NCBI GenBank assembly: GCA_003577165.1
Contig: QEUM01000016.1
Location: 1-43,069 of the forward strand
Direction: 5' to 3'
DNA: 43,069 nt
Origin: Armatimonadota bacterium
GTDB taxonomy: Bacteria > Armatimonadota > Fimbriimonadia > Fimbriimonadales > ATM1
Shown here: piece after piece, positions 1-40,798 of the stretch
How the letters are laid out: each line of letters begins with the position of its first letter
Numbering within the stretch: the first letter of the stretch is position 1
Notes under the pieces: model-generated
Databases searched by the model: none
The model's input: only the letters and a program-made list of their open reading frames with translations
Told to the model about the DNA's origin: nothing
Made by a program: the position numbers and the translations under genes

Positions 1-97
1 TTTAGGGCTCCCTTGCCAACTTCCAATACCGTCCGTCGCCTCGGTTTCCCGATCTCTTAGCTCGAGCCAGTGGAACCAGAGAGGAACCAAACGTGCG

Positions 98-125
98 GGA
101 GTGCGCGGACCGTGCCGCGCACTCC
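98..125 (-). terminator. Strong hairpin, probable terminator of the hypothetical gene
   Basis: An 11-bp perfect stem (98-108 with 115-125) closes a 6-nt loop, 28 nt beyond the stop codon of the minus-strand gene at 154-1107. On the minus strand only a short TTT run follows, so it is not a textbook intrinsic terminator. Nothing else is visible in bases 1-153. Confidence 0.4.
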
Positions 126-153
126 GAAACGGACCGTCGGCGAGTGGCCTCGG

Positions 154-1107
154 CTAACACTTCTTGCAGTACAGCTTGAAGACAGCGTCCGACATGTAGT
201 AACTCGTCACCTCTGTCCCGGACGACCCCATTTCGGCCTCCCGGAGCATGATTCCGAGACACACGCAGCAGGGGTCTGAATCTGCCGCGCCGATCTCCAT
301 GACGACCGTAGGTCCAAATTGGTCGAGCGGATCGTTTAGAAACGCGGGCGGCTTCTGCGCCCTGAGCGGTTGTGTGCGATCCAGGTTCGGCCCAGGGGAT
401 GCAGTGACGCAGTCTCCGATGGAGAGGTTTGTCGAAAAGGTCGCCGCCAGGAAGTTGGGCTGTTCGATGTAGTCCACGGCGAACTTCGCCCGTTCATCGG
501 ACCGCATGCCGATGTCGAAGTGCAGGGAGGCCGCTCCAGTTCTCGACGATCCGGCTCCGGCGTTTTCCACGAGGATGTTGCCGATCGTCGCCGGAGTTAA
601 CGTCCCCGAGTAACGAACGGGCGGCTTCTCCTTCGGACGGTGATAACGAATCCAAACGACTCCCGTGTCGATCGCGTATTCGACGATGAATCCGGGGCCT
701 CCGAAGGCCTCATCAAGGAACCCGCCGAGTGTGTCATGCAGCCAGTTGTAGTTGACCTCGCGACGCACTTCATGCAAGGCCTTCTGGAGGTTATCGCGAA
801 GGTCTGGTCGGACGAGGGAGATCGTTCGAACGGCTTGAGAGGCCTCGCCCAACAGCGGAACGATCACAATCGTGTGCGGTTCCTTGAGCGTCCAACGGGG
901 GGGCGTCGGAACGAGCGTGCCAAATTTGTCGCGGAAGGCGATACGTTGGCTCTCGAGAAACAACTTGCTGTCGGAGAGGAGTGTCACGAGTTCCTCCCAA
1001 TCGTTTGAAACGTAGATGACGGAGTTTTCCTCACGGTAGTTCGCTGCCGTTGAATAGTCGAGCAGGACGACTCCCGCTCTCTTCAGTGTGCCCACTGCTG
1101 GTGGCAT
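154..1107 (-). CDS. Hypothetical protein, 317 aa
   Basis: I do not recognise a family. The start is well supported: a perfect AGGAGG lies about 7 nt upstream of the ATG at 1107. There is no signal peptide or membrane segment; the protein looks globular and cytoplasmic. The C-terminal part is cysteine-rich, with DPCCVCLG about 40 residues from the end and a terminal YCKKC, which could be a metal-binding cluster (inference). The N-terminal third holds an ordinary mix of helix- and strand-like segments. It is transcribed in the same direction as the cyclase-STAND gene, but that gene lies downstream of its start region, not downstream of its stop, so this gene is the last of the minus-strand run. 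A strong hairpin follows its stop. Confidence 0.75.
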   Translation of the reverse strand: MPPAVGTLKRAGVVLLDYSTAANYREENSVIYVSNDWEELVTLLSDSKLFLESQRIAFRDKFGTLVPTPPRWTLKEPHTIVIVPLLGEASQAVRTISLVRPDLRDNLQKALHEVRREVNYNWLHDTLGGFLDEAFGGPGFIVEYAIDTGVVWIRYHRPKEKPPVRYSGTLTPATIGNILVENAGAGSSRTGAASLHFDIGMRSDERAKFAVDYIEQPNFLAATFSTNLSIGDCVTASPGPNLDRTQPLRAQKPPAFLNDPLDQFGPTVVMEIGAADSDPCCVCLGIMLREAEMGSSGTEVTSYYMSDAVFKLYCKKC

Positions 1108-1171
1108 GGCTGATCCTCCTAAAGCGTGAAAATGGTCGCCGGCTGCGCCAAAACGAGTGCTTCAGGGAGAC

Positions 1172-3763
1172 CTAAGGGTGCAAGGCTCGTGCCCTGCTCA
1201 AGACTGCTTCTGCGATCTCCACCCACGACATTCCCCTGCACTCGTCCGCCGCCTGCGCGACTGCGCTACTCAGCCATTCTGCGTCCGTCGGCGTACTCCT
1301 TCCGCGAAGCTGGCTTTTCACCATCGGCGAGGCGGTCTTGGGGAACCTGGCGAGGGCGGCCAGGCAGTTCGCCTCCGCCTCCGGCCTGCCGGCGGAGGCG
1401 AGCGTGTCGGCGAGGGCGATGAGGGCAAGCCCCGCATAGTGGGCGTAACTGCCCGCGAGGGCGCCCTCGAGCATCCGAAGGCACATCTCGATCGCGGACT
1501 CGTGCGCGCCTGCTGACAGATAGACCCCGGCCATGTTCCTCCACACATAGAACGCCTTCGGATCGGGCCGCAGGTCGGCCGCGATTCGGCGGGCTCTCTC
1601 GAAAAGGCGCGCTGCCTCCTCCGGGTCGCCCGTGCTCTGGTGAAGGCGCGATTTGAGGAGGAGCCCGCTTGCGCGAACCGCGCCGTCGGGAAGCGACGCT
1701 TCGATCGCGTCGAATTCTTTTAGGTAGTCCCTTGCGCGCGCGATGTTGCCATGAGCGAACATCATGTCGGCGAGGTCGAGAAGGCTGTCGGCTTGCTTCT
1801 CGAAGTCACGTACCAGTGCGCAAAGACGCACGCGCTCCTGCCAGTGTCGTTCTGCGCTCGCGATGTCTCCCGTCCTTCGGCAGGCGGTGCCCTGAAGTCC
1901 ACGGATTTCGATCAGCGTCGCGTGATCCAGCGTGCGAGTCGCCGCCGACTCCGCACCGCGAGAGAGTTCCTCAAACTCCTCGCGCAAACCTGCTTCAAGG
2001 TAGGAGCGGCAGAGGCCGCGTCCCAACCGAACCAAGAGGTCGTCTTCTCGGTTCTGAATGCAGTGGCGGGCTGCGGCGCGGAAGTTGCCCACCTCTCGCC
2101 AAAGCAGCGCGCTGGCTTCTGTCCAACTTCCTTCGTCGAACAGTGAGCGCACATCCGCCGCGCGACTTGCGAAGTGGACTGCGTGCGCGCGTTTCGTCGG
2201 AGCGATCTCATCAGGCGAAGCGGAGCTCTCGAGGTACTCGCGTACGCTGTCGAGCGAGCGATATCTCATCTTGCCATCTACGACGCTCGTAACCAAAAGG
2301 CTGAAGTCTCGCAGCAGACTGATGCCTTCAAGCACTTCGATCGAATCGCCGAGGACACTGACCGCGTCCGAAACGAAGAACCCGCCGGCGAAGACGGATA
2401 GGCGCGTCGCAAGATCCGCCTGCTCTTTGGGAAGGAGATCGAGCGATCCTTCGATGACGCCCGCAAGGTTTGCGTGCTTGTCCTCCCCGATCGGCCGTCT
2501 GCGCAGCACGTCGAGCCTTCCTTTGCGCAGTTGACTCGCGATTTCGCCAAGCGACAGATGACGTAGGCGTCCCGCCGCGAGCACGATGGCGAGCGGAATC
2601 CCCTCCGCAAGGTCCACGATGTCGCGAACGATGCGACGATTCGCGCGAGTCAAGCGGAACGCGCTCAAGATGTGGGAAGCAGCTTCGGCAAAGAGCAGTT
2701 CGCCATCGGAAGGGCCTCCGCCCTGCTTCGAGCGGCCCATCGGGCCGAGCGGATACTCGAACTCCCGGGGAAGACCGAGCACCGCGCGGCTTGTGACCAA
2801 GCACCGAATCGAACGCGATGACTTTAGGATCGCGTCGAGGGTCGGCCCTGCGTCGAGCAGCTTCTCAAAGCAATCGAGGACGAGAAGCGTTCGCTTTCCT
2901 TGGATGGCATCAGTGATGGACTGAATCGCAGTAGCGCCCTCCCCTTCGATACCGAGTTCGCGTGCGATAGCAACAAGCAGTTCTTGAGAGGAGATCAGAG
3001 GGTCGCACTCGACGAAGTGCACGTTTCCGTCGAAGTCATTGAGTAGGTCTGCGGCGACCTGTTTGGCGAGCCGCGTTTTCCCGGCGCCTCCGATTCCCGT
3101 GATGGTGACGAGGCCCTGTTCTCGTTCGAGGAGTTTCCGCGCGACCTCCTGCCGTTCGTCCTCTCTCCCGACGAAAGGCCTCTCCTCCGCAAGCTGAAGA
3201 AGCGGATGAGGCCCGGTCTCGACAGCCGCCCGGAGGGGGGGGAAGGTGTCTTGAAGCGAAGGGTGGCTGATTTGGAAGATCTCTTCCGGCCCGAGGCCGC
3301 GCAATTCATAGGCGCCGAGCGGGATGAGTCGAAAGTTTTCAGCCGCAGAGTCGGCCAGCGCATCGCGGATGGCGCGGGAGACCAGGACTTGGCCGCCATG
3401 TCCGAGATTGGTGACCCTGGCCGCGCGGCTCAGGGCGGGGCCGGTGAAGTCGCCTCCCTCTTCCTGTGCGCGTCCGACGTGGATTCCCATTCGTACGCGA
3501 AGCCGGGTTCTTCCCGGCCACGCTGCGCAATCAAGTTCCGCCTGGCAGGCGATCGCCGCTGACACCGCATGATCGGGGTGTTCGAAAACGGCGCAGAAGC
3601 CGTCTCCCGTCGCTTTGAAAATCCTGCCGCCGTGGCTCGTGAGCGCGGCACCGACGAGGGAGTTGTGGAGGCGCAGGGCGGCGGACATCGCGGCGCGATC
3701 GCGCTCCCAGAGGGCCGAACTCCCCTCGACATCGGTAAACAGGAAGCAGTAGTCGCGCGCCAT
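1172..3763 (-). CDS. Class III nucleotide cyclase - STAND ATPase - TPR signalling protein
   Basis: 863 aa with three parts. Residues 1-170 form a class III adenylate/guanylate cyclase domain: FTDVEGS with metal-binding Asp11, and ATGDGF with Asp54. Residues 195-450 form a STAND/NB-ARC-type ATPase: P-loop GIGGAGKT at 223-230, Walker B LLVLDCFE with Asp297, a TSR sensor motif and a GIPLA motif. The rest is helical and TPR-like, rich in LRxxGD and A-x-ExxYxx patterns. Proteins of this build are usually annotated 'adenylate/guanylate cyclase domain-containing ATPase'; the repeat region is expected to sense a ligand or partner and the ATPase to act as a switch (family knowledge). It is cytoplasmic, with no membrane segment. 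A TetR gene starts upstream on the same strand, with a 58-nt gap, so they may be co-transcribed. The ribosome site before the ATG is only a weak GGGTGGT. Confidence 0.85.
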   Translation of the reverse strand: MARDYCFLFTDVEGSSALWERDRAAMSAALRLHNSLVGAALTSHGGRIFKATGDGFCAVFEHPDHAVSAAIACQAELDCAAWPGRTRLRVRMGIHVGRAQEEGGDFTGPALSRAARVTNLGHGGQVLVSRAIRDALADSAAENFRLIPLGAYELRGLGPEEIFQISHPSLQDTFPPLRAAVETGPHPLLQLAEERPFVGREDERQEVARKLLEREQGLVTITGIGGAGKTRLAKQVAADLLNDFDGNVHFVECDPLISSQELLVAIARELGIEGEGATAIQSITDAIQGKRTLLVLDCFEKLLDAGPTLDAILKSSRSIRCLVTSRAVLGLPREFEYPLGPMGRSKQGGGPSDGELLFAEAASHILSAFRLTRANRRIVRDIVDLAEGIPLAIVLAAGRLRHLSLGEIASQLRKGRLDVLRRRPIGEDKHANLAGVIEGSLDLLPKEQADLATRLSVFAGGFFVSDAVSVLGDSIEVLEGISLLRDFSLLVTSVVDGKMRYRSLDSVREYLESSASPDEIAPTKRAHAVHFASRAADVRSLFDEGSWTEASALLWREVGNFRAAARHCIQNREDDLLVRLGRGLCRSYLEAGLREEFEELSRGAESAATRTLDHATLIEIRGLQGTACRRTGDIASAERHWQERVRLCALVRDFEKQADSLLDLADMMFAHGNIARARDYLKEFDAIEASLPDGAVRASGLLLKSRLHQSTGDPEEAARLFERARRIAADLRPDPKAFYVWRNMAGVYLSAGAHESAIEMCLRMLEGALAGSYAHYAGLALIALADTLASAGRPEAEANCLAALARFPKTASPMVKSQLRGRSTPTDAEWLSSAVAQAADECRGMSWVEIAEAVLSRARALHP

Positions 3764-3821
3764 ACCACCCGCCCCAGGGTTGGTACGACATTATGGGCGC
3801 GGCGGACGGGATGACCCCGCG

Positions 3822-4415
3822 TCAGACCACGAACGGGCGCCAGAAGGAGACCATCAGTGGGCCTAGCCTGCGCATAGGCTCCGAGGACCCCTTCACCCGG
3901 CAAAGGAGCAGCACGCCGTGCAGATACGCGGCGCACGCCTGCGCCAGCAGGCCCGGATCGGCGTCTGGGGTGAGGTCCATCTCGTCCCTCGCCTGACTGA
4001 ACGCCCTGGCGAGCGGAGTCTGCAGACGGTCGAGCACGGCTTCAGTGCGCTCCCGCATCTCCGCAGGGAGGCTGCCGAAGCAGGCCGCGTTCGTGCCGAT
4101 GAGCCAGAAGGCGGTGCCCGTCTGCTCGTCGATCGCTCGTGAGAGGCGATCCACCAGCCGGAGCGGGCGATCCAGGGGCTCCACGCCCTCGTCGAAGGCC
4201 GGGGAGAGGATCTCCTGGTCCACCCGGAGCTCCCATTCGGAGGTCGCGGCGGCGCCGAGGGCGGCCTTGGTTTCGAAGAAGTGGTAGAAGCTGCTCTTCC
4301 CAACGCCTGCTTCGGCGAGGAGGTCGTCCACGGCCGCTCCGGCATAGCCTCGGTCCGAAAACAGCCTCACCGCCCCGGTGAGGATTCTTTGGCGTGCGTC
4401 CGACTTGCGTCCCAT
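3822..4415 (-). CDS. TetR/AcrR family transcriptional regulator
   Basis: 197 aa. Residues 5-50 are a typical TetR DNA-binding domain: RQRILTGAVRLFSDRGYAG, then VDDLLAEAGVGKSSFYHFFETK, the helix-turn-helix with the KSSFYHFF recognition helix. The variable C-terminal ligand and dimerisation part includes QTGTAFWLIG and PDADPGLLAQACAAYLHGVLLL. I chose the ATG at 4415 because TTGGAGG sits 5 nt before it; an in-frame TTG four codons upstream would overlap that ribosome site. The gene is divergent from the his operon, 68 bp from the his -35 box, and lies upstream of the cyclase-STAND gene. Its target is unknown; TetR repressors usually control themselves and a neighbour, so either side is possible. 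Confidence 0.92.
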   Translation of the reverse strand: MGRKSDARQRILTGAVRLFSDRGYAGAAVDDLLAEAGVGKSSFYHFFETKAALGAAATSEWELRVDQEILSPAFDEGVEPLDRPLRLVDRLSRAIDEQTGTAFWLIGTNAACFGSLPAEMRERTEAVLDRLQTPLARAFSQARDEMDLTPDADPGLLAQACAAYLHGVLLLCRVKGSSEPMRRLGPLMVSFWRPFVV

Positions 4416-4482
4416 GTTGGCCTCCAAGGGATAACGACGGGGCCGCGTGACGTAGGGTTTCTCACCCCGTTAGGAATGCGCG

Positions 4483-4511
4483 TTGACAATTCAGCCGATT
4501 GGCTGTACAAT
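4483..4511 (+). promoter_or_regulatory. Consensus sigma-70-type promoter of the his operon
   Basis: A perfect -35 TTGACA (4483-4488), a 17-bp spacer and a -10 TACAAT (4506-4511, one mismatch). The transcription start would be about 4517-4519, 150 nt before hisG, leaving room for the leader peptide and the terminator hairpin described below. Confidence 0.85.
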
Positions 4512-4519
4512 GTCCTCTT

Positions 4520-4582
4520 GTGAGCAGGAACGAGGTCTTCCAAGGCCACCATCATCACGGTCTCGACGAGGCCGGTTCCTAG
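4520..4582 (+). CDS. Putative his operon leader peptide, 20 codons with four consecutive His
   Basis: GTG at 4520 opens a frame that ends at TAG 4580-4582 and encodes MSRNEVFQGHHHHGLDEAGS (the GTG read as Met). The four adjacent His codons are at 4547-4558. In enterobacterial his leaders a run of His codons senses charged tRNA-His, and stalling there prevents terminator formation (established). Here the predicted transcript would begin only 1-3 nt before the GTG, so the peptide would be translated from a near-leaderless mRNA with no Shine-Dalgarno; that is the weakest point. GGTCTC at 4559-4564, just after the His run, can pair with GAGGCC at 4568-4573, and GGCCGG at 4570-4575 can instead pair with CCGGCC at 4612-4617 in the terminator, giving the expected alternative folds. 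Confidence 0.6.
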   Translation: MSRNEVFQGHHHHGLDEAGS

Positions 4583-4609
4583 CCCACTCCTTCTTTATCT
4601 CCTTTTGGG

Positions 4610-4640
4610 CGCCGGCCACGTGGCCGGCGTTTCGTCTTTT
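4610..4640 (+). terminator. Intrinsic terminator/attenuator in the hisG leader
   Basis: A perfect 20-bp palindrome at 4610-4629 (arms CGCCGGCCAC and GTGGCCGGCG) is followed by the T-rich tract TTTCGTCTTTT at 4630-4640. It lies between the leader peptide and hisG, downstream of the operon promoter, so constitutive termination would silence the operon. That placement is what argues for attenuation. A competing helix with 4570-4575 would act as anti-terminator. Confidence 0.75.
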
Positions 4641-4665
4641 AATCGCACCTCACGGAGAATCCAAA

Positions 4666-5541
4666 ATGACAGACAGCATGCGTCCAAAGGTTCTAAGGCT
4701 CGCACTTCCGAAGGGAAGAATGCAGGCGGCCGTCTTTGAACTCCTCCGCGAAGCGGGGATGCACCTCACGGCGAGCAGCAGAGAGTACAGGCCGATCGTC
4801 TCGCTGTCGGGCGTCGAAGCTAAGATCTTGAAGCCGCAGAACATCGTAGAGATGCTGCATCAGGGCTCCCGAGACTTGGGCTTCACAGGGGCGGACTGGG
4901 TCGAGGAACTGGGCGCTAACCTCGTTCAACTTATTGACACGGAGTTCGACCTGGTCAGCGTGGTCGTGGCCGCGCCGCATTCCATCCTCGAAGGGGGGCT
5001 GCTTCCGAACCGGAAGATCGTCGTCGCGTCGGAGTACGAGTCCATCACCAAGCGGTGGATCGAGTCTAAGGGGATTGACGCTACGTTCGTGCGGTCGTAT
5101 GGAGCGACGGAGGTTTTCCCCCCCGAAGACGCGGATTGCATCGTGGATCTGACCGCCAGCGGAGCGACGTTGCGCGCGAACGATCTTGTCGTGGTCGAGG
5201 AACTCATGCGGTCTTCGACGAGGCTGTACGCGAATCCGCGCGCACTCGACGACGCAGCGCGCCGCGAGCGCATCGAGGATTTCGTGCTGCTCGTTCGCTC
5301 CGTGTTGGAGGCCCGAAGCCGCGTGATGTTGGAGGTCAATGTGGCATCGGAGAAGTTGGAAGGGTTGGTAGCGATCCTTCCATGCATGCGCGAACCGACG
5401 ATCGCTCCTCTCCACGGGGACGCGGGCTACGCCGTGAAGGCGGCCGTTCCCCGAAGCGAATTGCCTCGCGTCGTCCCGCTTTTGAAGGCGCGTGGAGGGA
5501 CTGACATCGTGGTCACCGAGATCGCGCAAATCGTTCCATAG
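4666..5541 (+). CDS. hisG: ATP phosphoribosyltransferase, long form
   Basis: 291 aa. Catalyses the first step of histidine synthesis, ATP + PRPP to phosphoribosyl-ATP, in the cytoplasm. Family segments are clear: LRLALPKGRM near the N-terminus, DLGFTGADWVEE, and the PRPP-binding DCIVDLTASGATLRANDL. The length and the C-terminal domain ending in GGTDIVVTEIAQI mark the long, self-regulated HisG, which binds histidine itself and needs no HisZ (family knowledge). I chose ATG 4666 because GGAG lies 8 nt upstream; the open frame continues further upstream but through the leader and terminator. It is the first structural gene of the his operon, 10 nt before hisB. Confidence 0.97.
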   Translation: MTDSMRPKVLRLALPKGRMQAAVFELLREAGMHLTASSREYRPIVSLSGVEAKILKPQNIVEMLHQGSRDLGFTGADWVEELGANLVQLIDTEFDLVSVVVAAPHSILEGGLLPNRKIVVASEYESITKRWIESKGIDATFVRSYGATEVFPPEDADCIVDLTASGATLRANDLVVVEELMRSSTRLYANPRALDDAARRERIEDFVLLVRSVLEARSRVMLEVNVASEKLEGLVAILPCMREPTIAPLHGDAGYAVKAAVPRSELPRVVPLLKARGGTDIVVTEIAQIVP

Positions 5542-5551
5542 GGGGAGTCAC

Positions 5552-6145
5552 ATGAAACAAGAACTGCAACGAACAGGTAGCGCGAAGCGCAGCACCACGG
5601 AAACTCAAATCGAGGTCACGCTGTCGCTCGATGGAGCGGGGGACTGCGACTCCGAGACGGGGATCGGCTTCCTCGACCACATGCTGGGGGCCCTTGCGAA
5701 GCACGCGCTCTGCGACCTTACGATCCGGTGCGAGGGTGACCTGCACGTGGACGATCACCACACATCAGAGGATTGCGCCTTGGCGTTGGGCGAAGCCCTG
5801 AACAAGGCTCTCGGTGATCGCAACGGCATACGTCGCTTCGGCGATGCGATGGCGCCGCTCGACGAGTCCCTTGCTCGGGCGGTGGTCGATCTCTCAGGGC
5901 GTCCCCACGCGACAATCCACCTCGGAATCGGCGCACAGCCGCTCGGCAATTGGTCGAGCGAAAACGTCGTTCACTTCTTCCGTTCGTTTGCGACGTCGGC
6001 CAGACTTTGCCTGCACTTAGATGTGCTGCGAGGCGAGAACGACCATCATCGAGTGGAGGCCGCGTTCAAGGCGCTGGCGCTCGCAATTCGCGATGCAAAA
6101 TCGCCGTCGGGCGCGGGCGTGCCGAGTACGAAGGGAGCGCTGTGA
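5552..6145 (+). CDS. hisB: Imidazoleglycerol-phosphate dehydratase
   Basis: 197 aa, monofunctional (no N-terminal histidinol phosphatase). It dehydrates imidazole glycerol phosphate to imidazole acetol phosphate. Diagnostic motifs are GIGFLDHML, DDHHTSEDCALALGEAL and a second metal-binding segment, GENDHHRVEAAFKALA, whose His residues bind the paired Mn ions of the family. GGGGGAG sits 4 nt before the ATG at 5552. The stop TGA overlaps the GTG start of hisH, which suggests translational coupling. Confidence 0.97.
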   Translation: MKQELQRTGSAKRSTTETQIEVTLSLDGAGDCDSETGIGFLDHMLGALAKHALCDLTIRCEGDLHVDDHHTSEDCALALGEALNKALGDRNGIRRFGDAMAPLDESLARAVVDLSGRPHATIHLGIGAQPLGNWSSENVVHFFRSFATSARLCLHLDVLRGENDHHRVEAAFKALALAIRDAKSPSGAGVPSTKGAL

Positions 6146-6744
6146 TCGAAGTCGGAGTCGTTCGAACGGGAACGGCAAATCTGGCGTCGGTGCTTGCCGC
6201 GCTGAGGCGCATCGGCTGTGCCTGCAGCGTCGTCGAGAGGCCGGATGATTTAGTGAAATCGAGAGTCGTCGTGCTGCCGGGTGTCGGTGCGTTCGGTCAA
6301 GCGATGGAGGGGATGCGCGAGAGGGGGCTCGTGGACGCGCTCCGGTTGCACTTCTCCGAAGGCAAGCCAGCGCTTGCGATCTGTCTCGGCATGCAGGTTC
6401 TGTTCGAGTCGAGTGAGGAGAGTCCAGGCGTTGTCGGGATGGGTTTGCTGCCGGGGAGCGTCGTGAGAATTGACTCCGCGATCCTGCCGCAGATCGGCTG
6501 GAATCGTATCGATGCGACGGGGTGCGCCTTTCAAAAGTCGGGCCATGCGTACTTCGCAAACACTTTCGCGGTTCCCCACGGCGAGTTTGGTGATTGGAAA
6601 GTGTCGCAGTTCGAGTACGGCCGCTCGTATGTGGCGGGAATCGAACGGGGCGCGCAGCTCGCCTGCCAGTTTCATCCGGAATTGTCGGGACAACTCGGCC
6701 TCGATATGCTGACCTGCTGGATGGCGGAGGCGCGGTCATGCTGA
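6142..6744 (+). CDS. hisH: Imidazole glycerol phosphate synthase, glutaminase subunit
   Basis: 200 aa, class I glutamine amidotransferase. It releases ammonia from glutamine and channels it to HisF. The nucleophile Cys is in AICLGMQVLFESSEE and the His-Glu pair in FHPELSG. The chosen GTG at 6142 overlaps the hisB stop by 4 nt (GTGA); the open frame upstream of it lies inside hisB. The 3' end overlaps hisF by 7 nt, as expected for partners made in equal amounts. Confidence 0.97.
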   Translation: MIEVGVVRTGTANLASVLAALRRIGCACSVVERPDDLVKSRVVVLPGVGAFGQAMEGMRERGLVDALRLHFSEGKPALAICLGMQVLFESSEESPGVVGMGLLPGSVVRIDSAILPQIGWNRIDATGCAFQKSGHAYFANTFAVPHGEFGDWKVSQFEYGRSYVAGIERGAQLACQFHPELSGQLGLDMLTCWMAEARSC

Positions 6745-7490
6745 CAAAGCGAGTGATTCCCTGTCTCGACGTGGATGCGGGCCGCGTTGTGAAGGGAGTG
6801 CGATTCCAAAATCTGAGAGACGCGGGCGATCCGGCTGAGTTGGCCGCACAATACGAACGGCAAGGAGCCGACGAGATCGTGCTGCTCGACGTGAGCGCGA
6901 CGAATGAGGGCCGAAGGGCGAGACGGGATGTCGTGGCGAAGGTCCGAGAGGCGATCGCGATTCCGCTCACGGTCGGTGGCGGGATTCGAGACGTGGAGAG
7001 CGCGCGCGAGGTCTTGGAGGCCGGCGCAGACAAAGTGAGTGTGAACACAGCGGCGGTAGAGTTCCCGGAAATGCTGCGCGAGATGCACGATCACTTTGGA
7101 GCACAGTGCGTCGTTCTCGCGTTGGATGCTGCGAGGGTGGATGGTGGCTGGGAGGTCATGACTCATTCGGGAACGAAGCGCACCGGGTTGCGTGCCGCGG
7201 AATGGGCCAAACAGGCCGAAGAGTTGGGCGCAGGCGAGATTCTATTGACGAGTTGGGATCGTGACGGCACGCGGTCGGGATACGACCTGGACTTGATATC
7301 GAACGTTCGAGCACAGGTGCGACTTCCCATCATCGCGTCAGGGGGGGCGGCAGGACCCGAGCACATGATCGAGGCTTATCGTGCCGGCGCCGACGCCGTG
7401 CTCGCCGCCAGCATCTTCCACGATGGTGATTATTCGGTCGAAGACATCAAGAGGGCGATGCAGTCAAGCGGGCTGGAGGTGCGGCTGTGA
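6738..7490 (+). CDS. hisF: Imidazole glycerol phosphate synthase, cyclase subunit
   Basis: 250 aa TIM barrel. It uses ammonia from HisH to convert PRFAR to imidazole glycerol phosphate and AICAR. The catalytic Asp near the N-terminus is in PCLDVDAGRVVKG; the second catalytic Asp is in TSWDRDGTRSGYD. Phosphate-binding loops VGGGIR and ASGGAAGPEH are intact. ATG 6738 overlaps the end of hisH; the stop overlaps the GTG of the next gene. Confidence 0.97.
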   Translation: MLTKRVIPCLDVDAGRVVKGVRFQNLRDAGDPAELAAQYERQGADEIVLLDVSATNEGRRARRDVVAKVREAIAIPLTVGGGIRDVESAREVLEAGADKVSVNTAAVEFPEMLREMHDHFGAQCVVLALDAARVDGGWEVMTHSGTKRTGLRAAEWAKQAEELGAGEILLTSWDRDGTRSGYDLDLISNVRAQVRLPIIASGGAAGPEHMIEAYRAGADAVLAASIFHDGDYSVEDIKRAMQSSGLEVRL

Positions 7491-8737
7491 TCGTTCCATC
7501 CATTGACCTTTCCGAGGGGAGAGCCGTTCAACTCGAAACAGGCGAGAGGCTCGTCATCGATGCGGGTGACCCACGGCCGCTCGCCACTCGGTTCGGGATG
7601 GTCGGAGAGATCGCGGTCATCGACCTCGATGCAGCGAAGGGCGAGGGGTCCAACGAGGAAGTCATTCGCGAATTGTTGGGTCTCGCGCGATGCCGCGTCG
7701 GAGGGGGTATTCGGAAGGCCGAGCGCGCGATCGAGTGGCTGGATGCAGGAGCATCGAAAGTCATTCTCGGAACGGCGGCTGAGCCGGAACTGCTCTCGCG
7801 CTTGCCTAAGGATCGAGTGATGGCTGCGTTGGATGCGCGACATGACGAAGTGGTCACGCACGGTTGGCGCACCAACACAGGAAGCAGGATCGAGGAGCGG
7901 GTCGAGGCACTTTCGGAACTCGTGAGCGGCTTTCTGGTGACGTTCGTCGAGCGAGAAGGGAAGATGGAGGGAACGAACCTCGATCGAATTCGAGAGTTGG
8001 TCGAGCGATTTCCCGGAGTGAAGTTCACTTTTGCGGGGGGGATTACAACACTGGAAGAGATCCGTGAGATAGACCGGCTGGGAGCGGATTGCCAGGTGGG
8101 GATGGCGCTCTATACAGGTCGAATCGGGCTCGCAGACGCGCTCTGCGCACCCTTGAATTGGACGGCCGATGGAATGATTCCGACGGTCGTGTGCGACGAA
8201 GCCGGTGTGGCCCTGGGCCTGCATTGGTCGAATCCGGACTCGCTACGCGAGGCGATCGAGTCGGGAACCGGCGTGTATCACTCCCGCAAGCGCGGACTCT
8301 GGCGGAAGGGCGAGACGTCGGGCGACAGACAGGAGCTTCTGCGCGTCGATGCAGACTGCGATCGGGACGCGCTGCGGTTTACGGTTCGGCAGTTTGGTCG
8401 TGGAAACTGCCATGTTGGAACTCGCACCTGTTGGGGCGACGACTGGGGGCTTCACCGGCTCTATCGCAGACTGGAAGCGCTCGCAGTGGACGCGCCGCCG
8501 GATTCCTACACAAGGCGGCTGTTGGCAGATCGGGAGTTGTTGGAATCGAAGTTGCGAGAGGAACTCGGTGAACTTCTGGCCGCACGCGATGCGGGCGAAA
8601 CAGCATGGGAGAGCGCGGACCTTTTGTACTTCGTTCTCGTCAAGTGCGTTGCCATCGGCGTCGGCCTCGAGGAGGTGGAGCGAATTCTCGATTTGCGAGA
8701 AAAGAGGGTGACGCGCAGGCCGGGGGATGCGAAGTGA
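7487..8737 (+). CDS. hisA: HisA-HisI-HisE triple fusion
   Basis: 416 aa carrying three activities in one chain. Residues 1-220 are HisA, the ProFAR isomerase, a TIM barrel with catalytic Asp7 (SIDLSEGRAVQL) and Asp116 (AALDARHDE), and phosphate loops VGGGIR and FAGGIT. Residues 222-316 are HisI, phosphoribosyl-AMP cyclohydrolase: SRKRGLWRKGETSG, DADCD with Cys291, NCH with Cys308 and RTC with Cys315, the zinc ligands. Residues 320-408 are HisE, phosphoribosyl-ATP pyrophosphatase, with KLREELGELLAA and ESADLLYF. The three catalyse consecutive steps 2-4 of the pathway. HisI-HisE fusions are common; HisA in front is not one I know. The usual Gln-Asp of HisI is Cys-Asp here (VVCDEAG). GTG 7487 overlaps the hisF stop. 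Confidence 0.93.
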   Translation: MIVPSIDLSEGRAVQLETGERLVIDAGDPRPLATRFGMVGEIAVIDLDAAKGEGSNEEVIRELLGLARCRVGGGIRKAERAIEWLDAGASKVILGTAAEPELLSRLPKDRVMAALDARHDEVVTHGWRTNTGSRIEERVEALSELVSGFLVTFVEREGKMEGTNLDRIRELVERFPGVKFTFAGGITTLEEIREIDRLGADCQVGMALYTGRIGLADALCAPLNWTADGMIPTVVCDEAGVALGLHWSNPDSLREAIESGTGVYHSRKRGLWRKGETSGDRQELLRVDADCDRDALRFTVRQFGRGNCHVGTRTCWGDDWGLHRLYRRLEALAVDAPPDSYTRRLLADRELLESKLREELGELLAARDAGETAWESADLLYFVLVKCVAIGVGLEEVERILDLREKRVTRRPGDAK

Positions 8738-9993
8738 GCCGGCGCTTGTTTCCGCTGGTCACGATCGAGGAGGCGGTCCGCCGAACGCCGAAGCCGCTCG
8801 ACGAAGAGGCCGTTGCGAGATCGGAGGAGATCCTGCGATCGATCGAAGAGCGAGGATGGGAGGCTGCCGTTTCGTGGGCGAACGAACTCGGCGATCTCGT
8901 GCCGGGCCAAGCCGCAGTCTTGCAAGGGGATGAACTGCAGGCGGCGCTCAACGAAATTCCCCAAGATCATCGTGAGTTGTTGTCGAGGGTTCGAGACCGC
9001 ATCGCGCGCTTCGCGGAAGTCCAGTTGGCGTCGCTGCGCTCTGCGGTGAGCGACATTCCGGGAGGAATCGCGGGCCATGTCGTTGTGCCGGTTCGCGCGG
9101 CGGGCTGTTACGCTCCGGGGGGGCGATATCCGCTGCCGAGTTCGGTGCTGATGACCGTGACCACTGCTCGAGTCGCAGGCGTGGAATCGGTCTGGTGCGC
9201 CTCTCCCAAGCCGTCCGCAGTGACCGTCGCGGCGGCCGCAGTCGCCGGAGCGGACGCGCTAATCGCGTTCGGGGGGGCGCCTGCAGTCGGCGTCCTTGCC
9301 TACGGATGCGGCCCGGTTCCGAGATGCGATGTGATCGTGGGTCCCGGAAGCAAGTGGGTCACCGCGGCAAAGAGGGCCGTCTTCGGGCAGGTCGGAATCG
9401 ACATGCTCGCGGGTCCTTCGGAGTTGCTCGTGCTCGCAGACGACTCGGCGAACGCGGCTTGGATTGCGGCCGATCTGCTCGCCCAGGCTGAGCATGACGT
9501 GGATGCCGGTCCGATGCTGATTTCGACAAGCGAGTCGCTGCTCGACGCGGTCGAACTTGCGCTGCAGAATCAACTCGAAACACTACCGACGAAGGAAATC
9601 GCGGAGCGCGCGCTTGCGAACGGATGGGCTGCGTTTGCGCCAAGCCTCGAAGAGGGGATTCGCGTGGCAAACGAAGTCGCTCCAGAGCATCTGGAGTTGA
9701 TGGTGCGGGATGCGGAGTCGGTCGCTCAGAGGCTGACCGAATACGGCGGCTTGTTCATTGGCGGCAACGCGGCCGAAGTGTTCGGAGATTACGGAGCAGG
9801 CCCGAATCACGTCCTACCGACTGGTCGGACCGCGCGCTTCTCGAGCGGACTCTCCGTGTTGAACTTCCTCCGCACGAGGACTTGGATGCAGGTCTCCAAA
9901 CCGAACGACGCGCTGATCGACGACTGCGCGGAACTGGCTCGCTTAGAGGGCTTGGAAGCGCACGCCCGCGCGGCAGAGATGCGTCGAGGTTAG
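8734..9993 (+). CDS. hisD: Histidinol dehydrogenase
   Basis: 419 aa, the normal length. It oxidises L-histidinol to L-histidine in two NAD-dependent steps and needs zinc. Visible family segments are GGRYPLPSSVLM, VGPGSKWVTAAKR, DMLAGPSELLVLAD, AQAEHD (zinc ligands Gln and His), APEHLEL and GDYGAGPNHVLPT (zinc-ligand Asp and catalytic region). GTG 8734 overlaps the preceding stop by 4 nt. It is the last gene of the operon: hisC and a histidinol-phosphatase are not in this window. Its stop codon interlocks with that of the convergent ThuA gene. Confidence 0.97.
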   Translation: MSRRLFPLVTIEEAVRRTPKPLDEEAVARSEEILRSIEERGWEAAVSWANELGDLVPGQAAVLQGDELQAALNEIPQDHRELLSRVRDRIARFAEVQLASLRSAVSDIPGGIAGHVVVPVRAAGCYAPGGRYPLPSSVLMTVTTARVAGVESVWCASPKPSAVTVAAAAVAGADALIAFGGAPAVGVLAYGCGPVPRCDVIVGPGSKWVTAAKRAVFGQVGIDMLAGPSELLVLADDSANAAWIAADLLAQAEHDVDAGPMLISTSESLLDAVELALQNQLETLPTKEIAERALANGWAAFAPSLEEGIRVANEVAPEHLELMVRDAESVAQRLTEYGGLFIGGNAAEVFGDYGAGPNHVLPTGRTARFSSGLSVLNFLRTRTWMQVSKPNDALIDDCAELARLEGLEAHARAAEMRRG

Positions 9994-11357
9994 TCGTTTC
10001 GGGGCAGTACCCATACGTTGCGATAGGCGATCGGCCCGTGATCGCCCTGCAGCATCAGAGGCCCCTTCGGCTTCTCGTCGTCGAACAGACTTGCCCGTGT
10101 CGGGCCGGTGCAGCGTACGTTTTCGAGAACGACTAATCCGTTGAGCCGGACCTCGTGAAAGACGGCGTCGGAAATCTTTTTGCCAGCGCGGTCGAAGCGC
10201 GGAGCCGAAAAGCGTATGTCGAGGGTCTGCCACTTTCCTGGAGCAAGGGCAGCATTGACGCGCGGAGGAACGCCTTCAAAACCCTTGTCGTTCTTCCACC
10301 TCTCGTACTTCCCGCCCATGTCGGAGTGCATGAGGTTGGCAGCGGCGACCTCGAAGGAGTCGCGAATTTGAATCTCGTATCGCCCCATGAGGTACACGCC
10401 CGAGTTCGAATTCTTGGGGATGCAGAACTCGACGCGCAGAAGCACGTCTCCGTACTGTTCGCGAGTGATGAGATGGGCGTCCCGGCCATTGCTCGTGAAA
10501 AGGACACCCGAGCCAGGCGATGACGTCAATCGCAGCGGATCCGACGTGTCGAGCAAAACGTCGCCCACTTCGATCCAGCCCTTCGGAAGGGTCGCGCCGA
10601 AATTAGCGGATTCGGCCCCGTGCGGACGACCCGCTTGTGATGCCCACAGGATGCCTTGATAAAGGTGTTCGACAAATTCGGGCTCGGTGTAGGACTCCTT
10701 GGTGTGACCGAGGGCCGTGTACCAGGATCGCCCACCGTCAAACTCACTACACCATATGATTGGATGGTCCGATCCCATGGAGCCGCCGGCGTAGGTCGTT
10801 TCGTCGACGCTCGCGAGCACGCGCACGTCTTTTCGCGGACTTGCGTCGAAGTCGTACCATTCGTCGGTTCTTTCCCAGGCCTTCGGCAGGAACTGCGTCG
10901 AGGGGTGTCTGTCATCTTCGATGCGGATCGTCGCTTTTGAGATCTGAGGATGGCGTCGGAAGTAGGCTCCTGCCAGTTGGCGATACCACGGCCATTGGTA
11001 TTCCGTGTCCGTCGCTGCGTGGACGCCAACATATCCGTTGCCTTCGCGAATGAAGGCTTGAAACGCCGCCTGCTGCGTTTCGTCTAGCACGTCGCCAGTC
11101 GTGAGCAAGAAGACGACACAGTCAAAGTTCGCCAAATTCGACGGATTGAATGCGGCGGAATCCTCGGTGAAGGTGACCGTAAAACCTTTGCTTTGCGAAA
11201 GACGCCGTAGCGCCTCTTGGGCATCGGGAATGGAGTCGTGCCGGAAGCCTGCCGTCTTGGAGAAGGCGAGCACGCGCGGATGCGACACGGAGAGAGCGCT
11301 CATGGAGGCGCTCTGCGTCAGGCTGACCAGACTGGCGGCGAGAAGACCGGCGACCAT
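9990..11357 (-). CDS. ThuA domain - DUF1080 fusion protein, exported
   Basis: 455 aa. An N-terminal hydrophobic stretch (residues 1-20, ending near QSAS) looks like a signal peptide. Residues 27-245 form a ThuA domain, a glutamine-amidotransferase-like fold: VLAFSKTAGFRHDSIP, FDCVVFLLTTGDVL, GNGYVGVHAATDT and WYTALGHTKESY. Residues 255-455 form a DUF1080 (3-keto-disaccharide hydrolase / concanavalin-like) domain: WIEVGDVLL, NSGVYLMGRYEIQI and the terminal GPIAYRNVWVLP. ThuA is linked to trehalose and other disaccharide use and DUF1080 to 3-keto-sugar hydrolysis, so an envelope sugar-catabolic role is likely (inference). No Shine-Dalgarno precedes the ATG at 11357; a GATAAT six bases before it could mean a leaderless message. 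The 3' end overlaps hisD by 4 nt, tail to tail. Confidence 0.88.
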   Translation of the reverse strand: MVAGLLAASLVSLTQSASMSALSVSHPRVLAFSKTAGFRHDSIPDAQEALRRLSQSKGFTVTFTEDSAAFNPSNLANFDCVVFLLTTGDVLDETQQAAFQAFIREGNGYVGVHAATDTEYQWPWYRQLAGAYFRRHPQISKATIRIEDDRHPSTQFLPKAWERTDEWYDFDASPRKDVRVLASVDETTYAGGSMGSDHPIIWCSEFDGGRSWYTALGHTKESYTEPEFVEHLYQGILWASQAGRPHGAESANFGATLPKGWIEVGDVLLDTSDPLRLTSSPGSGVLFTSNGRDAHLITREQYGDVLLRVEFCIPKNSNSGVYLMGRYEIQIRDSFEVAAANLMHSDMGGKYERWKNDKGFEGVPPRVNAALAPGKWQTLDIRFSAPRFDRAGKKISDAVFHEVRLNGLVVLENVRCTGPTRASLFDDEKPKGPLMLQGDHGPIAYRNVWVLPRND

Positions 11358-11402
11358 GTGCGGATTATCGCACGCCAGCCACCGAACGCTCGGTTCGGCT
11401 GA

Positions 11403-12563
11403 CTATTTGGAGTACTCTCGGATTTGGATTCCGCGCTCTTTCAGCCGCTCCACGACCGTCGTTCCCGGCACGGCAAGTTCGTATCGGACGCAGCCGTGAG
11501 ACACGTTGCCTTCGGCGATCTCAATCGCCACGATCGAGGTCGGGAAGCCGGTCATTCTTTCCATCGCGCTGAAGCCCGTAGCCTCGTCCTGTTTGTCGTG
11601 AATTTCGATGACGAGAGTCGAATCTGCGCCGTCCTTCTTTCCAGAAGCGACTGCTCGCACTAAGATCTGGTCTTGGTCTTCGTCGTCGCGGAGCGCATCT
11701 GCCATCACCTTGTGGAACAACTCTCGCGGGCGGACTTTGCAGCCTTCGACTTCGATCGGTTCCATGCTCCAGAAACCAAAGTCAGAGAACATCCGCATCC
11801 GTTCGCAGTGTCCGGGAAACCGAATGGTCTTGTATTCGTAGGTGCGCACCTTGCCTTCGAAAGTATAGGGCGCCGTGCTTGTGCCGCCACTCGTGACAAA
11901 CGCTTCCATTTTCCCGAGGCCTGGCCAGTCGATGCTCTCGAGGTCCGTCAGACTGTCGGGTCGCGCGATCTTCCAATCGCGAATCGCGAAGGCGGGGTCG
12001 GTGTATTCCGCGACGAGTCCCTCGATGTTGAAGACCAACTTGTAATTAAGAGGCGGCTTCGGATGCTGAGGGAGTCCACCGCAATATAGATAGATGTCCA
12101 GCGTTTCATCCAGGAGGGACATCAAGTGCGTTGCAAGGCTGTTGACGAGTCCGGGCGCGAGCCCCGTGTCCGGAACGACGCACACCTTCGCCGCTTTGGC
12201 AGCGTCGTCGAGTTTCATCGTTTCGAGGGTGACCTCGGTGTCCCCGCCCATGTCCACCATGCTCGTCGCCGTGTGGATCGCAACCGGCGCGACGCGAGGA
12301 TGCATCCAGTAGGGAACGCAACTCAGCACGACGTCCACAGGCTCCAAGAACTTGGCGAGGTCGTGCTCCTTGAGTGCATCCACTTGGAAAGCCTCGCAAA
12401 TCGCCTTTCCAACGAGGCAATTGATGCGGTGGGCGTTAGTTTCCGCCTGCGCCAAACTCACGTCGCCCATGAGTATGCGGTCAGCGTTCCCGAATCTTGC
12501 TAAATCGTATGCAGAGGCCGTGCCCTGCATACCGGATCCGAGTATCGCGTACGTGTAACCCAT
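11403..12563 (-). CDS. Saccharopine dehydrogenase family protein, lysine 6-dehydrogenase-like
   Basis: 386 aa, the normal length for lysine 6-dehydrogenase and its relatives. An N-terminal Rossmann fold carries YAILGSGMQGTASAYDLARFG (nucleotide-binding GxGxxG), followed by VDVVLSCVPYWMHPRVAPVAI and DMGGDTEV; the middle has PDTGLAPGLVNSLATHLM and TSGGTSTAPYTFEGKV, both typical of the family. Likely an NAD(P)-dependent oxidoreductase acting on lysine or a related amino acid in the cytoplasm; the exact substrate cannot be read from sequence. GGAG lies 6 nt before the ATG at 12563. It is divergent from the small basic protein at 12749 and 45 nt upstream of the ThuA-DUF1080 gene on the same strand. 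Confidence 0.85.
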   Translation of the reverse strand: MGYTYAILGSGMQGTASAYDLARFGNADRILMGDVSLAQAETNAHRINCLVGKAICEAFQVDALKEHDLAKFLEPVDVVLSCVPYWMHPRVAPVAIHTATSMVDMGGDTEVTLETMKLDDAAKAAKVCVVPDTGLAPGLVNSLATHLMSLLDETLDIYLYCGGLPQHPKPPLNYKLVFNIEGLVAEYTDPAFAIRDWKIARPDSLTDLESIDWPGLGKMEAFVTSGGTSTAPYTFEGKVRTYEYKTIRFPGHCERMRMFSDFGFWSMEPIEVEGCKVRPRELFHKVMADALRDDEDQDQILVRAVASGKKDGADSTLVIEIHDKQDEATGFSAMERMTGFPTSIVAIEIAEGNVSHGCVRYELAVPGTTVVERLKERGIQIREYSK

Positions 12564-12716
12564 GGAGTCTCCAGTTTCTTATCGGCGGCGGTGGATTGCG
12601 CGAGCAGTGTGTGCCGCAGAAAAAATCGCGGGCGATCTCGCCTCGCGTTCAGGGAGAATACCGCGAATCGCCCTCGCGCCTCAACCTCGCGGATATGCCG
12701 GCAGGCTGCGAGTCAG

Positions 12717-12725
12717 TGTTATAAT
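12717..12725 (+). promoter_or_regulatory. Extended -10 promoter for the small basic protein
   Basis: TGTTATAAT: a perfect TATAAT at 12720-12725 preceded by TG one base upstream, the extended -10 form. No good -35 is present, as expected for that class. Transcription would begin about 17 nt before the ATG at 12749. Confidence 0.6.
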
Positions 12726-12748
12726 GCTGTCCGCTCAGGACGATTTGT

Positions 12749-13006
12749 ATGCGTATTCGGAATAAGGAACTGCGCCAACGGCGCCATCGGAAGGAGAAGG
12801 CCCAGAAGGCCGCAATCAAGGCTGCGAAGGCAGCGGGCAAGTCCACCCCGAAAACAAAGGCGCCAGCCGCCGAAAAGCCGAAGGCCGCGCCGAAGAAGAC
12901 GACCACAAGGGCCGCAGCAGCCAAGAAGCCGGCCGCTCCGCGAAAGAGAGCGACCAAGAAGGCGGAAGAGCCCGCTCCCGAAGCGGAAGCGCCCGCCGAA
13001 GGCTAA
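12749..13006 (+). CDS. Small Lys/Ala/Pro-rich basic protein, histone H1-like
   Basis: 85 aa. It opens with a dense Arg/Lys helix (MRIRNKELRQRRHRKEK), continues with A/K-rich repeats (AAIKAAKAAGK, then TPKTKAP, AAEKPKAAPKK, AAAAKKPAAPRK), and ends in a short acidic tail EEPAPEAEAPAEG. No family is recognised. Composition resembles the disordered tails of bacterial histone H1-like or ribosome-associated proteins, so nucleic acid binding is likely (inference). Support for being real: an extended -10 box, AGGA 8 nt before the ATG, and a composition very unlike a random frame. The opposite strand also has a long frame here; I treat it as a shadow. Confidence 0.7.
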   Translation: MRIRNKELRQRRHRKEKAQKAAIKAAKAAGKSTPKTKAPAAEKPKAAPKKTTTRAAAAKKPAAPRKRATKKAEEPAPEAEAPAEG

Positions 13007-13059
13007 GTTCCCCCCGGAGAGCCATAAGTCAAGGGCATCATCGGCCCAGACTGCGCCCG

Positions 13060-14622
13060 TTAGCGTGGTTTGCCCTCGGATTCGCCCGGAAGCGCCCATG
13101 GCGGGGGCCCAACCTCGTCCTCGTCGGCGCCGACCGTGCTCGGCTGCTCCCACTCTTGTGGCCGCTCTTCGGCCGGGGCGGACACGGATGGCGGAGCGAC
13201 GGTTCCGAATACCCGCGTGAAGAGAGCCGACTGGAGAACCGACTCCGGGTCGAGACGCCTCTTGATCGCGAGAAACTCGGCGACTGCGTCTTCGCCCCAT
13301 ACCGCGGCTGGCGCGCCCAGGAATAGCGTCGAGTCCTTCGCAAAGTAGAAGCGACCGCGGTTCTCAAGCACGATTTCGTCGAGGGCGCGGGCGAGGGAGT
13401 TCATGGCGTCTCTTGCCTTTTGCGGAACTCGATAATCAAGGGCAAGAGAGTAGCCGTCGAGACCGTGGCTGAGCAAGAACGAGTCTTGGCGGTGCTTTTT
13501 CAGTACCGCCAATAACGGGACCATTCCTCTGTCCTGAGAGAGTCCGACGATGCGATCGAACGCCTCCGGCGCGCGCTCGATCGGAAGGAAGGCTTGGTAC
13601 TGAACGAGGGCGGCTTTGCCGTAAGAGAGTTTCCAATTCGGCGCAGCGTCGAGCAGAAAACTGAACCTGGCTAAGGATTCACGGTGGATGCGGCCGGATT
13701 CTCTTTTGCCGGAGCGAAACTTCGCCGCGTTCACCATTCGCATTCCGAATCGATTCACAAACGGGCGCATGAATCGAAACAACTGCGAGCGGGCGAGGCA
13801 GCCCGCAAACGTATCCGGCAAGGCTTGTGCAGACGCGCGCAGTGTCTCCTCGGGGTGTGCGTCTTCACCCGGTCCCAGGTGCCACGCTCCATGAACGAGT
13901 CCACGGCCGGAAGACGCTCCTGAGGAGAAGGCGTCGACCCAACCTACTACATAGTCGGCCTGCCCCCCACCTGTCAGCCTCTCGAATGCAGAAAACTGTT
14001 CACGCCAAGATGCAACAGAGACCGGTTCGACCTTGAGAAGTCCGGAGTGGACTCTCTTCATTTGCAGGGTGACCGAGAAGATGACGCCGAGCAGTCCGAA
14101 TCCGCCGATCGCCGCGTAGAAGATGTCGCTGTTCTCGGTTCTGGAGCAGTGGATCTTGTCCCTCGTCGGCGTTAGGAGTTCGAACTCCAGCACGTGGTCG
14201 CCGATCGGTCCGACTGCAAAGCAGTTCTTTCCATGGATGTTCGCCGCCACTGCGCCGCCGATCGTGACTTTCGCCGTTCCAGGAACGACAGGCGGCCACC
14301 AGCCGTCGGGGAGAGTGTATTGCCACAACTGCTCGATCGTCACGCCTGGCTCGCAGCGAATGATGCCGGTCTGGGGACTCCACTCGAGGATGCGAGTCAT
14401 GCGAGTGAGGTCGATGACGATTCCTTCCGGACATTGGAACGCATCCCCGTAACTATTGCCGCCTCCTTTCAGAGCGACCGGGAGCCCGAACGCCTCTGCG
14501 TCTTCGAACGCGTCAATGATGCCTTCCTCCGTCGTTGGGCGATAGACGTACGACAGACTCGAAGACGACATGCCCCATGCCTCGATCCGTTCGAGGCGTT
14601 CTGTGGGCGGAGTGCGCGTCAC
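13060..14622 (-). CDS. FAD-linked oxidase, DprE1-like
   Basis: 520 aa from the GTG at 14622. The N-terminal FAD-binding (PCMH-type) domain carries YRPTTEEGIIDAF, GGGNSYGDA, IVIDLTRM, GGAVAANIHGKN and AAIGGFGLLGVIFSVTL. The GGA..A..IHGKN block closely resembles mycobacterial DprE1, the FAD subunit of decaprenylphosphoryl-ribose 2'-epimerase. The C-terminal part with PIERAPEAFDRIVGL and FYFAKDSTLF fits the same group. The GTG overlaps the stop of the upstream short-chain dehydrogenase by 4 nt, and that neighbour looks like the reductase half (DprE2), so the two probably act together, with oxidation then re-reduction at C2' of a lipid-linked pentose (inference). The frame is open further upstream but inside the neighbour. 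Confidence 0.82.
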   Translation of the reverse strand: MTRTPPTERLERIEAWGMSSSSLSYVYRPTTEEGIIDAFEDAEAFGLPVALKGGGNSYGDAFQCPEGIVIDLTRMTRILEWSPQTGIIRCEPGVTIEQLWQYTLPDGWWPPVVPGTAKVTIGGAVAANIHGKNCFAVGPIGDHVLEFELLTPTRDKIHCSRTENSDIFYAAIGGFGLLGVIFSVTLQMKRVHSGLLKVEPVSVASWREQFSAFERLTGGGQADYVVGWVDAFSSGASSGRGLVHGAWHLGPGEDAHPEETLRASAQALPDTFAGCLARSQLFRFMRPFVNRFGMRMVNAAKFRSGKRESGRIHRESLARFSFLLDAAPNWKLSYGKAALVQYQAFLPIERAPEAFDRIVGLSQDRGMVPLLAVLKKHRQDSFLLSHGLDGYSLALDYRVPQKARDAMNSLARALDEIVLENRGRFYFAKDSTLFLGAPAAVWGEDAVAEFLAIKRRLDPESVLQSALFTRVFGTVAPPSVSAPAEERPQEWEQPSTVGADEDEVGPPPWALPGESEGKPR

Positions 14623-15368: not shown

Positions 15369-15447
15369 ATTGTCAGGCCCTCTCCTCAAGCATATCCGAA
15401 CGCGAGTTCGTAGTCGGGAACCGGGTCACGAGCATCCCGCAACCTTC

Positions 15448-16542: not shown

Positions 16543-16557
16543 ATGCCTACTGTACCG

Positions 16558-18318: not shown

Positions 18319-18674
18319 TACTTGCTACGGTGCACTCGGAACCTGCCGTTCCGGGGGCGGGTTTTCAACGTGCCGGAAGGCCCATTTGCGCACCCGGAGA
18401 GGCCTCGCCAAACAATTATGTTAAATTTCGAATTCGCAACGAACGAAACGAACACCGCCAACGTCCTACGAACGGCCCTGAGCCTTCCTCCTCCTGCCTG
18501 TACCCACCTGCACCCCCTAGAGAGGAAGTGACCGCCAGGGCCGTCTTCCTTTAAGCGGTCTGCGATTTTTTGGGGTCTGCACGCCAACTCGATCACCGCC
18601 TGCACAGGGGACGCGCAGTTGGGATAGAATCCAACGGTTCCCATGGTTGGGAACTCTCACGGGGTCCTAACGGA
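18319..18674. other. 356-nt divergent intergenic region upstream of nuoG
   Basis: No gene is seen. It contains an AT-rich island near 18412-18440 (AATTATGTTAAATTTCGAAT), a degenerate hairpin around 18523-18550 (AGGAA pairing with TTCCT, with an imperfect inner stem), and the nuo promoter and inverted repeat listed separately. It must hold the promoters of both the minus-strand cyclase and the nuo operon. Confidence 0.5.
18625..18654 (+). promoter_or_regulatory. Likely nuo operon -10 box and adjacent inverted repeat
   Basis: TAGAAT at 18625-18630 is a near-consensus -10; no good -35 is visible. Seven bases downstream is a perfect inverted repeat, GTTCCCA (18637-18643) and TGGGAAC (18648-18654), with a 4-base gap. 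It would sit at about the transcription start, as a repressor site or as a hairpin at the 5' end of the mRNA. Confidence 0.45.
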
Positions 18675-37979: not shown

Positions 37980-37993
37980 TGAAGGAACGAGCG

Positions 37994-40598: not shown

Positions 40599-40604
40599 TT
40601 GAAT

Positions 40605-40740: not shown

Positions 40741-40741
40741 A

Positions 40742-40763: not shown

Positions 40764-40798
40764 AGCCATCTCCAGGGAAGGGACAGAGGAGGTGGATA

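Follow-up and report, generated by a model that had tools for sequence, protein, structure and literature searches.

The enterobacterial hisL leader (Rfam RF00514) combines an ORF containing His codons, mutually exclusive helices, and an intrinsic terminator before hisG. Leaders with a His-rich peptide, a terminator, and an anti-terminator are also known outside Proteobacteria. Candidate His-leader attenuators occur in the Firmicutes, in the B. cereus group, Peptostreptococcaceae, and Erysipelotrichales (PMC9413887), and hisS/hisZ leaders have been reported in the same phylum (PMC2965389). These belong to another phylum and to other operons than the leader studied here, and we liken them to it by description. 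We likewise compare by description a structured leader element that precedes hisG in Flavobacteriaceae (Bacteroidota), which also has no Rfam match and was reported together with a suggestion of leader-peptide attenuation for amino-acid operons (PMC9723704). Mycobacterial Cys-rich upstream ORFs have similarly been proposed as attenuators where leaderless transcripts are common, but they involve cysteine rather than histidine, and the accessible part of that report does not state an intrinsic terminator (PMC4633059).

We analyzed a 43,069-nucleotide stretch of DNA (the window) from an Armatimonadota bacterium, in which the region before hisG follows the same logic as hisL. Very probably, the his operon is controlled by a ribosome-mediated transcription attenuator at 4483-4665. 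Its leader is probably leaderless, and it has homologues in other phyla and was probably acquired with the operon. A first-pass annotation had proposed His attenuation outside Proteobacteria at this site. It is well supported here, but the Firmicutes cases had already been reported. What appears to be new is a homologous cross-phylum family of His leaders and its leaderless architecture; no prior report of either was found in the literature available without subscription.

Layout of the leader and its operon

The promoter, His leader ORF, anti-terminator, terminator, Shine-Dalgarno site, and hisG follow one another on the + strand (Table 1), and the whole array spans 4483-4666. The first-pass annotation had described a promoter, a 20-codon frame with four His codons, helices, and a terminator in order before hisG, and all are where it placed them. 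The promoter matches the consensus at 11 of 12 positions and is the top-scoring such match within the first 20 kb (1-20000). Because the leader GTG (4520) is only 8 nt past the -10 hexamer, at or no more than 2 nt from the expected transcript start, the leader has no Shine-Dalgarno site and no room for one. In E. coli K-12, the corresponding distance from the apparent -10 (TAGGTT) to the hisL start is about 38 nt. Short ORFs with at least four His per seven codons are rare in the host, with 3 in 285 kb of its genome on both strands.

Table 1. Features of the probable his attenuator and the operon that follows it
Feature	Position	Strand	Details
Sigma-70-type promoter, TTGACA-17-TACAAT	4483-4511	+	TTGACA 4483-4488; 17-nt spacer; TACAAT 4506-4511
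Expected transcription start (predicted)	4518-4520	+	7-9 nt 3' of -10 hexamer
Leader peptide ORF, MSRNEVFQGHHHHGLDEAGS	4520-4582	+	20 codons; GTG 4520-4522; TAG 4580-4582; probably leaderless
Four successive His codons, CAC CAT CAT CAC (CACCATCATCAC); stall site	4547-4558	+	
Protector (pre-emptor)	4524-4583	+	4558-4564/4568-4574 plus 4524-4531/4575-4583; sequesters anti-terminator strand
Anti-terminator	4570-4617	+	4570-4576/4611-4617 and 4582-4586/4606-4610
Intrinsic terminator, GGCGCCGGCC-ACGT-GGCCGGCGTT, tail TTTCGTCTTTT	4608-4640	+	Stem 4608-4617/4622-4631; tail 4630-4640
Shine-Dalgarno site of hisG, GGAG	4654-4657	+	Sequence
hisG, ATP phosphoribosyltransferase	4666-5541	+	TIGR00070, E 1.5e-43
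hisB	5552-6145	+	NCBIfam
hisH	6142-6744	+	NCBIfam
hisF	6738-7490	+	NCBIfam
hisA-hisI-hisE fusion	7487-8737	+	NCBIfam
hisD	8692-9993	+	NCBIfam

The regulated unit is a hisG-B-H-F-A/IE-D operon, so the downstream genes make histidine. Its gene order differs from that of the enterobacterial his operon. The whole genome has a single hisG match and a single hisI match, and therefore the cell relies on this operon for those steps. Adjoining hisD on the opposite strand (9990-11357) is a gene for a ThuA domain fused to a 3-keto-disaccharide hydrolase domain. Another minus-strand gene (1172-3763) encodes a large protein with guanylate cyclase, NB-ARC ATPase, and TPR domains.

Computed folding and the position of the ribosome

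The leader fold was more stable than all 200 of 200 dinucleotide shuffles (z = -4.4). Without a ribosome, computed folding assigned 4568-4583 to the protector, which contains the helix 4559-4564/4568-4573 of the first-pass annotation. The protector had a minimum free energy of about -25 kcal/mol (4520-4586), and equally low values were found in 15 of 500 shuffles and, with synonymous recoding, in 21 of 1000 sequences. When a ribosome was masked on the first His codons in RNA extending to 4619, a 12-pair anti-terminator formed (-20.3 kcal/mol). One as strong was rare among dinucleotide shuffles of this segment (6 of 1000). Synonymous recoding was a weak control for this element, with 86 of 1000 equally good, in part owing to the GC-rich terminator arm. 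The annotation had predicted that a stalled ribosome would free 4570-4575. Masked folding agrees that a strand is freed, but the anti-terminator is larger than that segment and includes 4582-4586/4606-4610.

The terminator alone had a stability of -20.6 kcal/mol, and its U-tract is interrupted (TTTCGTCTTTT). Placing the ribosome at the stop codon abolished the anti-terminator in the computed fold, and the terminator formed. The 5' arm of the terminator was entirely paired upstream under the His-codon mask (9/9 pairs), which none of 60 shuffles matched, and it made 1 pair with upstream RNA under the stop-codon mask. This was extended to 34 leaders, in which the mean number of terminator-arm pairs was 9.2 with a stalled ribosome, 6.7 in shuffles, and 4.0 with a ribosome at the stop codon. 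All of these masks presuppose a rigid ribosome footprint. When the third or fourth His codon was masked, full-length RNA still preferred the terminator, which makes the outcome dependent on the order of folding. The similar stabilities of anti-terminator and terminator also indicate that the outcome is set by folding order during transcription, as in the classical model.

Therefore, by computed folding, the choice between terminator and anti-terminator is set by ribosome position. Another hallmark of the attenuator class is a leader ORF with His codons (HHHH), which is present, predicted to be translated, and kept in relatives (see below). Ribosome-mediated His attenuation is well supported by this anatomy, by the folds computed with the ribosome stalled, and by its conservation in relatives despite divergence of their leader sequences.

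We propose the following mechanism. Transcription would begin at about 4518-4520, with the leader GTG at the 5' end of the RNA and read via leaderless initiation. When His-tRNA is ample, the ribosome would reach the stop codon and make 4570-4576 unavailable; when the ribosome is absent, the protector would form and make the same strand unavailable. Either way, the terminator (4608-4631) would form and transcription would end before hisG. Under His-tRNA shortage, the ribosome would stall at 4547-4558 and block the protector. Then 4570-4586 could pair with 4606-4617, which would pre-empt the terminator and allow the whole operon to be transcribed.

Relatives of the leader in other phyla and in the host class

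Neither the leader nor the relatives examined convincingly match an Rfam family. At a cut-off of E 10, RF00514 did not match within 4400-4750, and it had no genome-wide match either, although the E. coli control was detected. Other Rfam matches at 4400-4750 were chance level only, and a T-box was not matched, the window search having returned tRNAs only. Rfam also had no match for 20 leaders of the family described here.

Among 80 named hisG relatives, a His-rich leader ORF was found in 31, and 7 further leaders were found via a covariance model only. Leaders occurred at 17/17 named loci of Planctomycetota, 6/6 of Spirochaetota, 3/3 of Acidobacteriota, 5/20 of Myxococcota, 4/20 of Pseudomonadota, and 1/2 of Sumerlaeota. 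The consensus of 20 leaders has a His run, GGCCGGGUGAUGGUG spanning the stop codon, CCAUCGACGCCGGCC, GGCCGGCGUC, and a U-tract. Its terminator helix was 92% paired, with both sides changed at four pairs, and its anti-terminator was 80% paired, compared with at most 49% when slid. A terminator core, CGCCGGCC..GGCCGGCG, is conserved in sequence in most other-phylum leaders and is common to the window leader.

A terminator was present in 40 of 41 leaders. This bears on whether control is translational, with the leader ORF feeding hisG by reinitiation, or structure masking the hisG start, and no termination. Leader ORFs near genes have been proposed to boost translation via reinitiation (PMC4833913). 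However, in the window 83 nt separate the leader stop from hisG, which is preceded by a GGAG of its own, and the intervening sequence contains the hairpin with its U-rich tail, the element so widely kept. We consider translational control very improbable and retain transcription attenuation.

Many family members, though not all, have a UGAUGGUG box at the leader stop codon. It can pair with the His codons at loci L044, L058, L064, L084, L091, L097, and others of Planctomycetota, and so the sensing codons there double as strand 1 of the switch. At least 6 of the 12 His-codon bases were paired downstream in 19 of 34 leaders. The window leader does not have the box at its stop codon but UUCCUAGCCCAC instead, and its protector uses 4524-4531 and 4558-4564 in place of the pairing between UGAUGGUG and His codons.

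The covariance model, R1, was built from 20 leaders of other phyla and zero sequences of the host order. Its top match in the 2.75-Mb host genome was 4538-4641, with 41.1 bits (E 4e-6), and the runner-up had 20.4. Because a model built only from leaders of other phyla ranks this site first, we conclude that, by sequence and structure comparison and with a moderate margin, the window leader belongs to a homologous cross-phylum His-leader RNA family. The first-pass annotation had suggested an independent or very deep occurrence. That suggestion is not favored, because the model from other phyla matches the leader and the operon type is confined to one class of the phylum (see below). Further weak R1 matches in the phylum (25-34 bits) were discarded as mostly His-rich protein genes or GC hairpins.

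We also compared leaders within the phylum, in a sample of 291 genomes, 113 of them from the host class. A hisG of the window type, defined by E below 1e-70, was found in 13 of the 291, all 13 of the host class. Most other genomes had a hisG about 33% identical, with dispersed his genes. A His leader (a short His-rich ORF between promoter and hisG) was present in 10 of the 13. A same-family leader, in genome G003, encodes HHHH, and the HisG protein there is 65% identical to that of the window. The leader was missing before the same type of hisG in genomes G009, G063, and G098; loci L002, L113, and L115 have this type of hisG but not the His leader. A hairpin kept without His codons, the pattern that the annotation had named as contrary to its reading, does not occur among the relatives. 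In one genus (L004-L006, L112, L114, and L116), the His codons themselves are the 5' arm of a hairpin, and in L004 a compensatory change converts a His codon to Arg. The next hairpin in these hisG leaders has a C-rich rather than a U-rich tail.

R1 matches in genomes G035 and G056 exposed a second compact operon type, hisI-hisG-hisH, which has a His leader of its own. Searching for hisI then gave 7 such operons in the same class (L156-L162), with the leader about 70-190 nt upstream of hisI. All 7 have a His leader and a terminator-like hairpin before hisI, and these terminators are unlike the R1 core. Among dispersed genes, neither the 23 hisI loci nor the hisG loci examined had a His leader. 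In the host class, attenuators sit on compact his operons and not on dispersed genes. The hisI-first operons also contradict the notion that leaders in the class are limited to the presumably transferred operon type.

Short ORFs with at least four His per seven codons occurred in 41 of 116 regions upstream of hisG but in only 3 of 2515 control segments. That enrichment, together with leaders in 10/13 and 7/7 class genomes, makes it scarcely credible that the arrangement is a product of chance with no regulatory function. Another explanation is regulation by a protein or by Rho, with the His codons mattering little. A TetR-like gene (3825-4412) is just upstream of the leader and divergently transcribed, and regulation through the ilvB leader of an actinobacterium was reported to be unaffected by codon mutations (PMC1262725). 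However, His runs persist before his operons though the leader sequence has otherwise diverged, and the NCBIfam relatives of the TetR gene are acrylate and butyrolactone-type regulators, all below cut-off. This explanation is improbable, and we favor sensing by the ribosome.

A stronger challenge, to homology rather than to attenuation, is that the His leader of the class arose independently and that its likeness to the family is that of any His run with a GC-rich hairpin. The hisI-first operons, an unrelated type in the same class, also have His leaders but quite different terminators, which suggests that such leaders readily arise or move. Low R1 scores were also obtained within the class for L003, L111, and L004-L006. 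Against this, R1 gave 41 bits for the window and 37 for L007, compared with 17-29 for unrelated His attenuators (the seven hisI-first leaders and E. coli hisL, the latter with only 20.5). Other phyla also share the CGCCGGCC..GGCCGGCG core and, at the end of the peptide, the GCCGG codons, and the operon gene order is identical. Convergence is possible but unlikely, and homology to the leaders before hisG-B-H-F-A operons elsewhere is the preferred reading.

Probable leaderless initiation, origin, and host

The leader start codon is located where transcription should begin, and so translation of the leader looks leaderless, here and family-wide. Among 47 loci, the best promoter ended 5-11 nt before the leader start in 33 (shuffles, mean 5.2, maximum 12), and strong promoters at leaderless spacing numbered 20, with 0.4 expected by chance. 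In G003 an ATG is 7 nt after TATCAT, and in G045 a GTG is 6 nt after TACCAT. The start codon was picked by a fixed rule, which explains why L003 and a few other loci fall outside the 5-11 nt band; another in-frame ATG fits. In a 285-kb sample (L118-L132) plus the window, TATAAT-like hexamers were about threefold enriched 6-10 nt before candidate starts, and Shine-Dalgarno signals were weak. Together, these suggest that leaderless initiation is probably normal in the host and that leaderless genes are common in its genome. A low Shine-Dalgarno fraction has been listed for Fimbriimonadia of Armatimonadota (PMC10783764), a class that may include the host.

The hisG-B-H-F-A gene order is common to the window operon and other phyla. 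The patchy presence of the operon type, in 13 of 291 genomes and one class, makes acquisition of operon and leader the simplest account. The HisG tree is weakly supported and poorly resolved, and so transfer rests mainly on this patchy distribution. A single-clade test of the HisG sequences of the class did not reject single acquisition (p-AU 0.915). Operon and leader were probably acquired together horizontally.

Contamination of the contig was ruled out, since nuoH identity was 66-71% within the same family and fell with distance. The first-pass annotation had considered an Armatimonadota-like, non-proteobacterial host. The host is not a proteobacterium: against named plasmid-borne 16S copies, all from other phyla, the best identities were 78% (Actinobacteria) and 76% (an alphaproteobacterium). 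The Armatimonadota assignment is supported by a 905-aa ORF adjoining cas1, in the region 37880-41827. This ORF matched CasPi (PDB 7YOJ) over all 867 residues with 2002 bits, and Asp2Cas12l with 726 bits. The Cas12l nuclease family was described from Armatimonadetes (PMC9724661). By these protein matches, the contig carries a Cas12l/CasPi type V CRISPR locus, and CasPi probably came from this genome or from one nearly identical to it. The effector was missed by Pfam and PADLOC, and there was no repeat array within 41500-43069, up to the contig end.

On balance, we favor a single widespread His-leader RNA family, present in at least six phyla and not in Rfam, that moves together with the hisG-B-H-F-A operon and relies on leaderless translation. 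If so, the leader start codon would be the 5' end of the transcript, the ribosome would load once the RNA emerges, and the entire switch would fit in about 120 nt without a ribosome-binding site. The leader before hisG would then be a specific example of an RNA switch that has probably crossed from one phylum to another along with its operon. His attenuation is extended to Armatimonadota, Planctomycetota, Spirochaetota, Acidobacteriota, Myxococcota, and Sumerlaeota, and this extension rests on a homologous RNA that a model can detect, not on isolated look-alikes. The leaderless start suggests that ribosome-sensing attenuation can dispense with a Shine-Dalgarno-led leader, which bears on transcription-translation coupling in poorly studied phyla.
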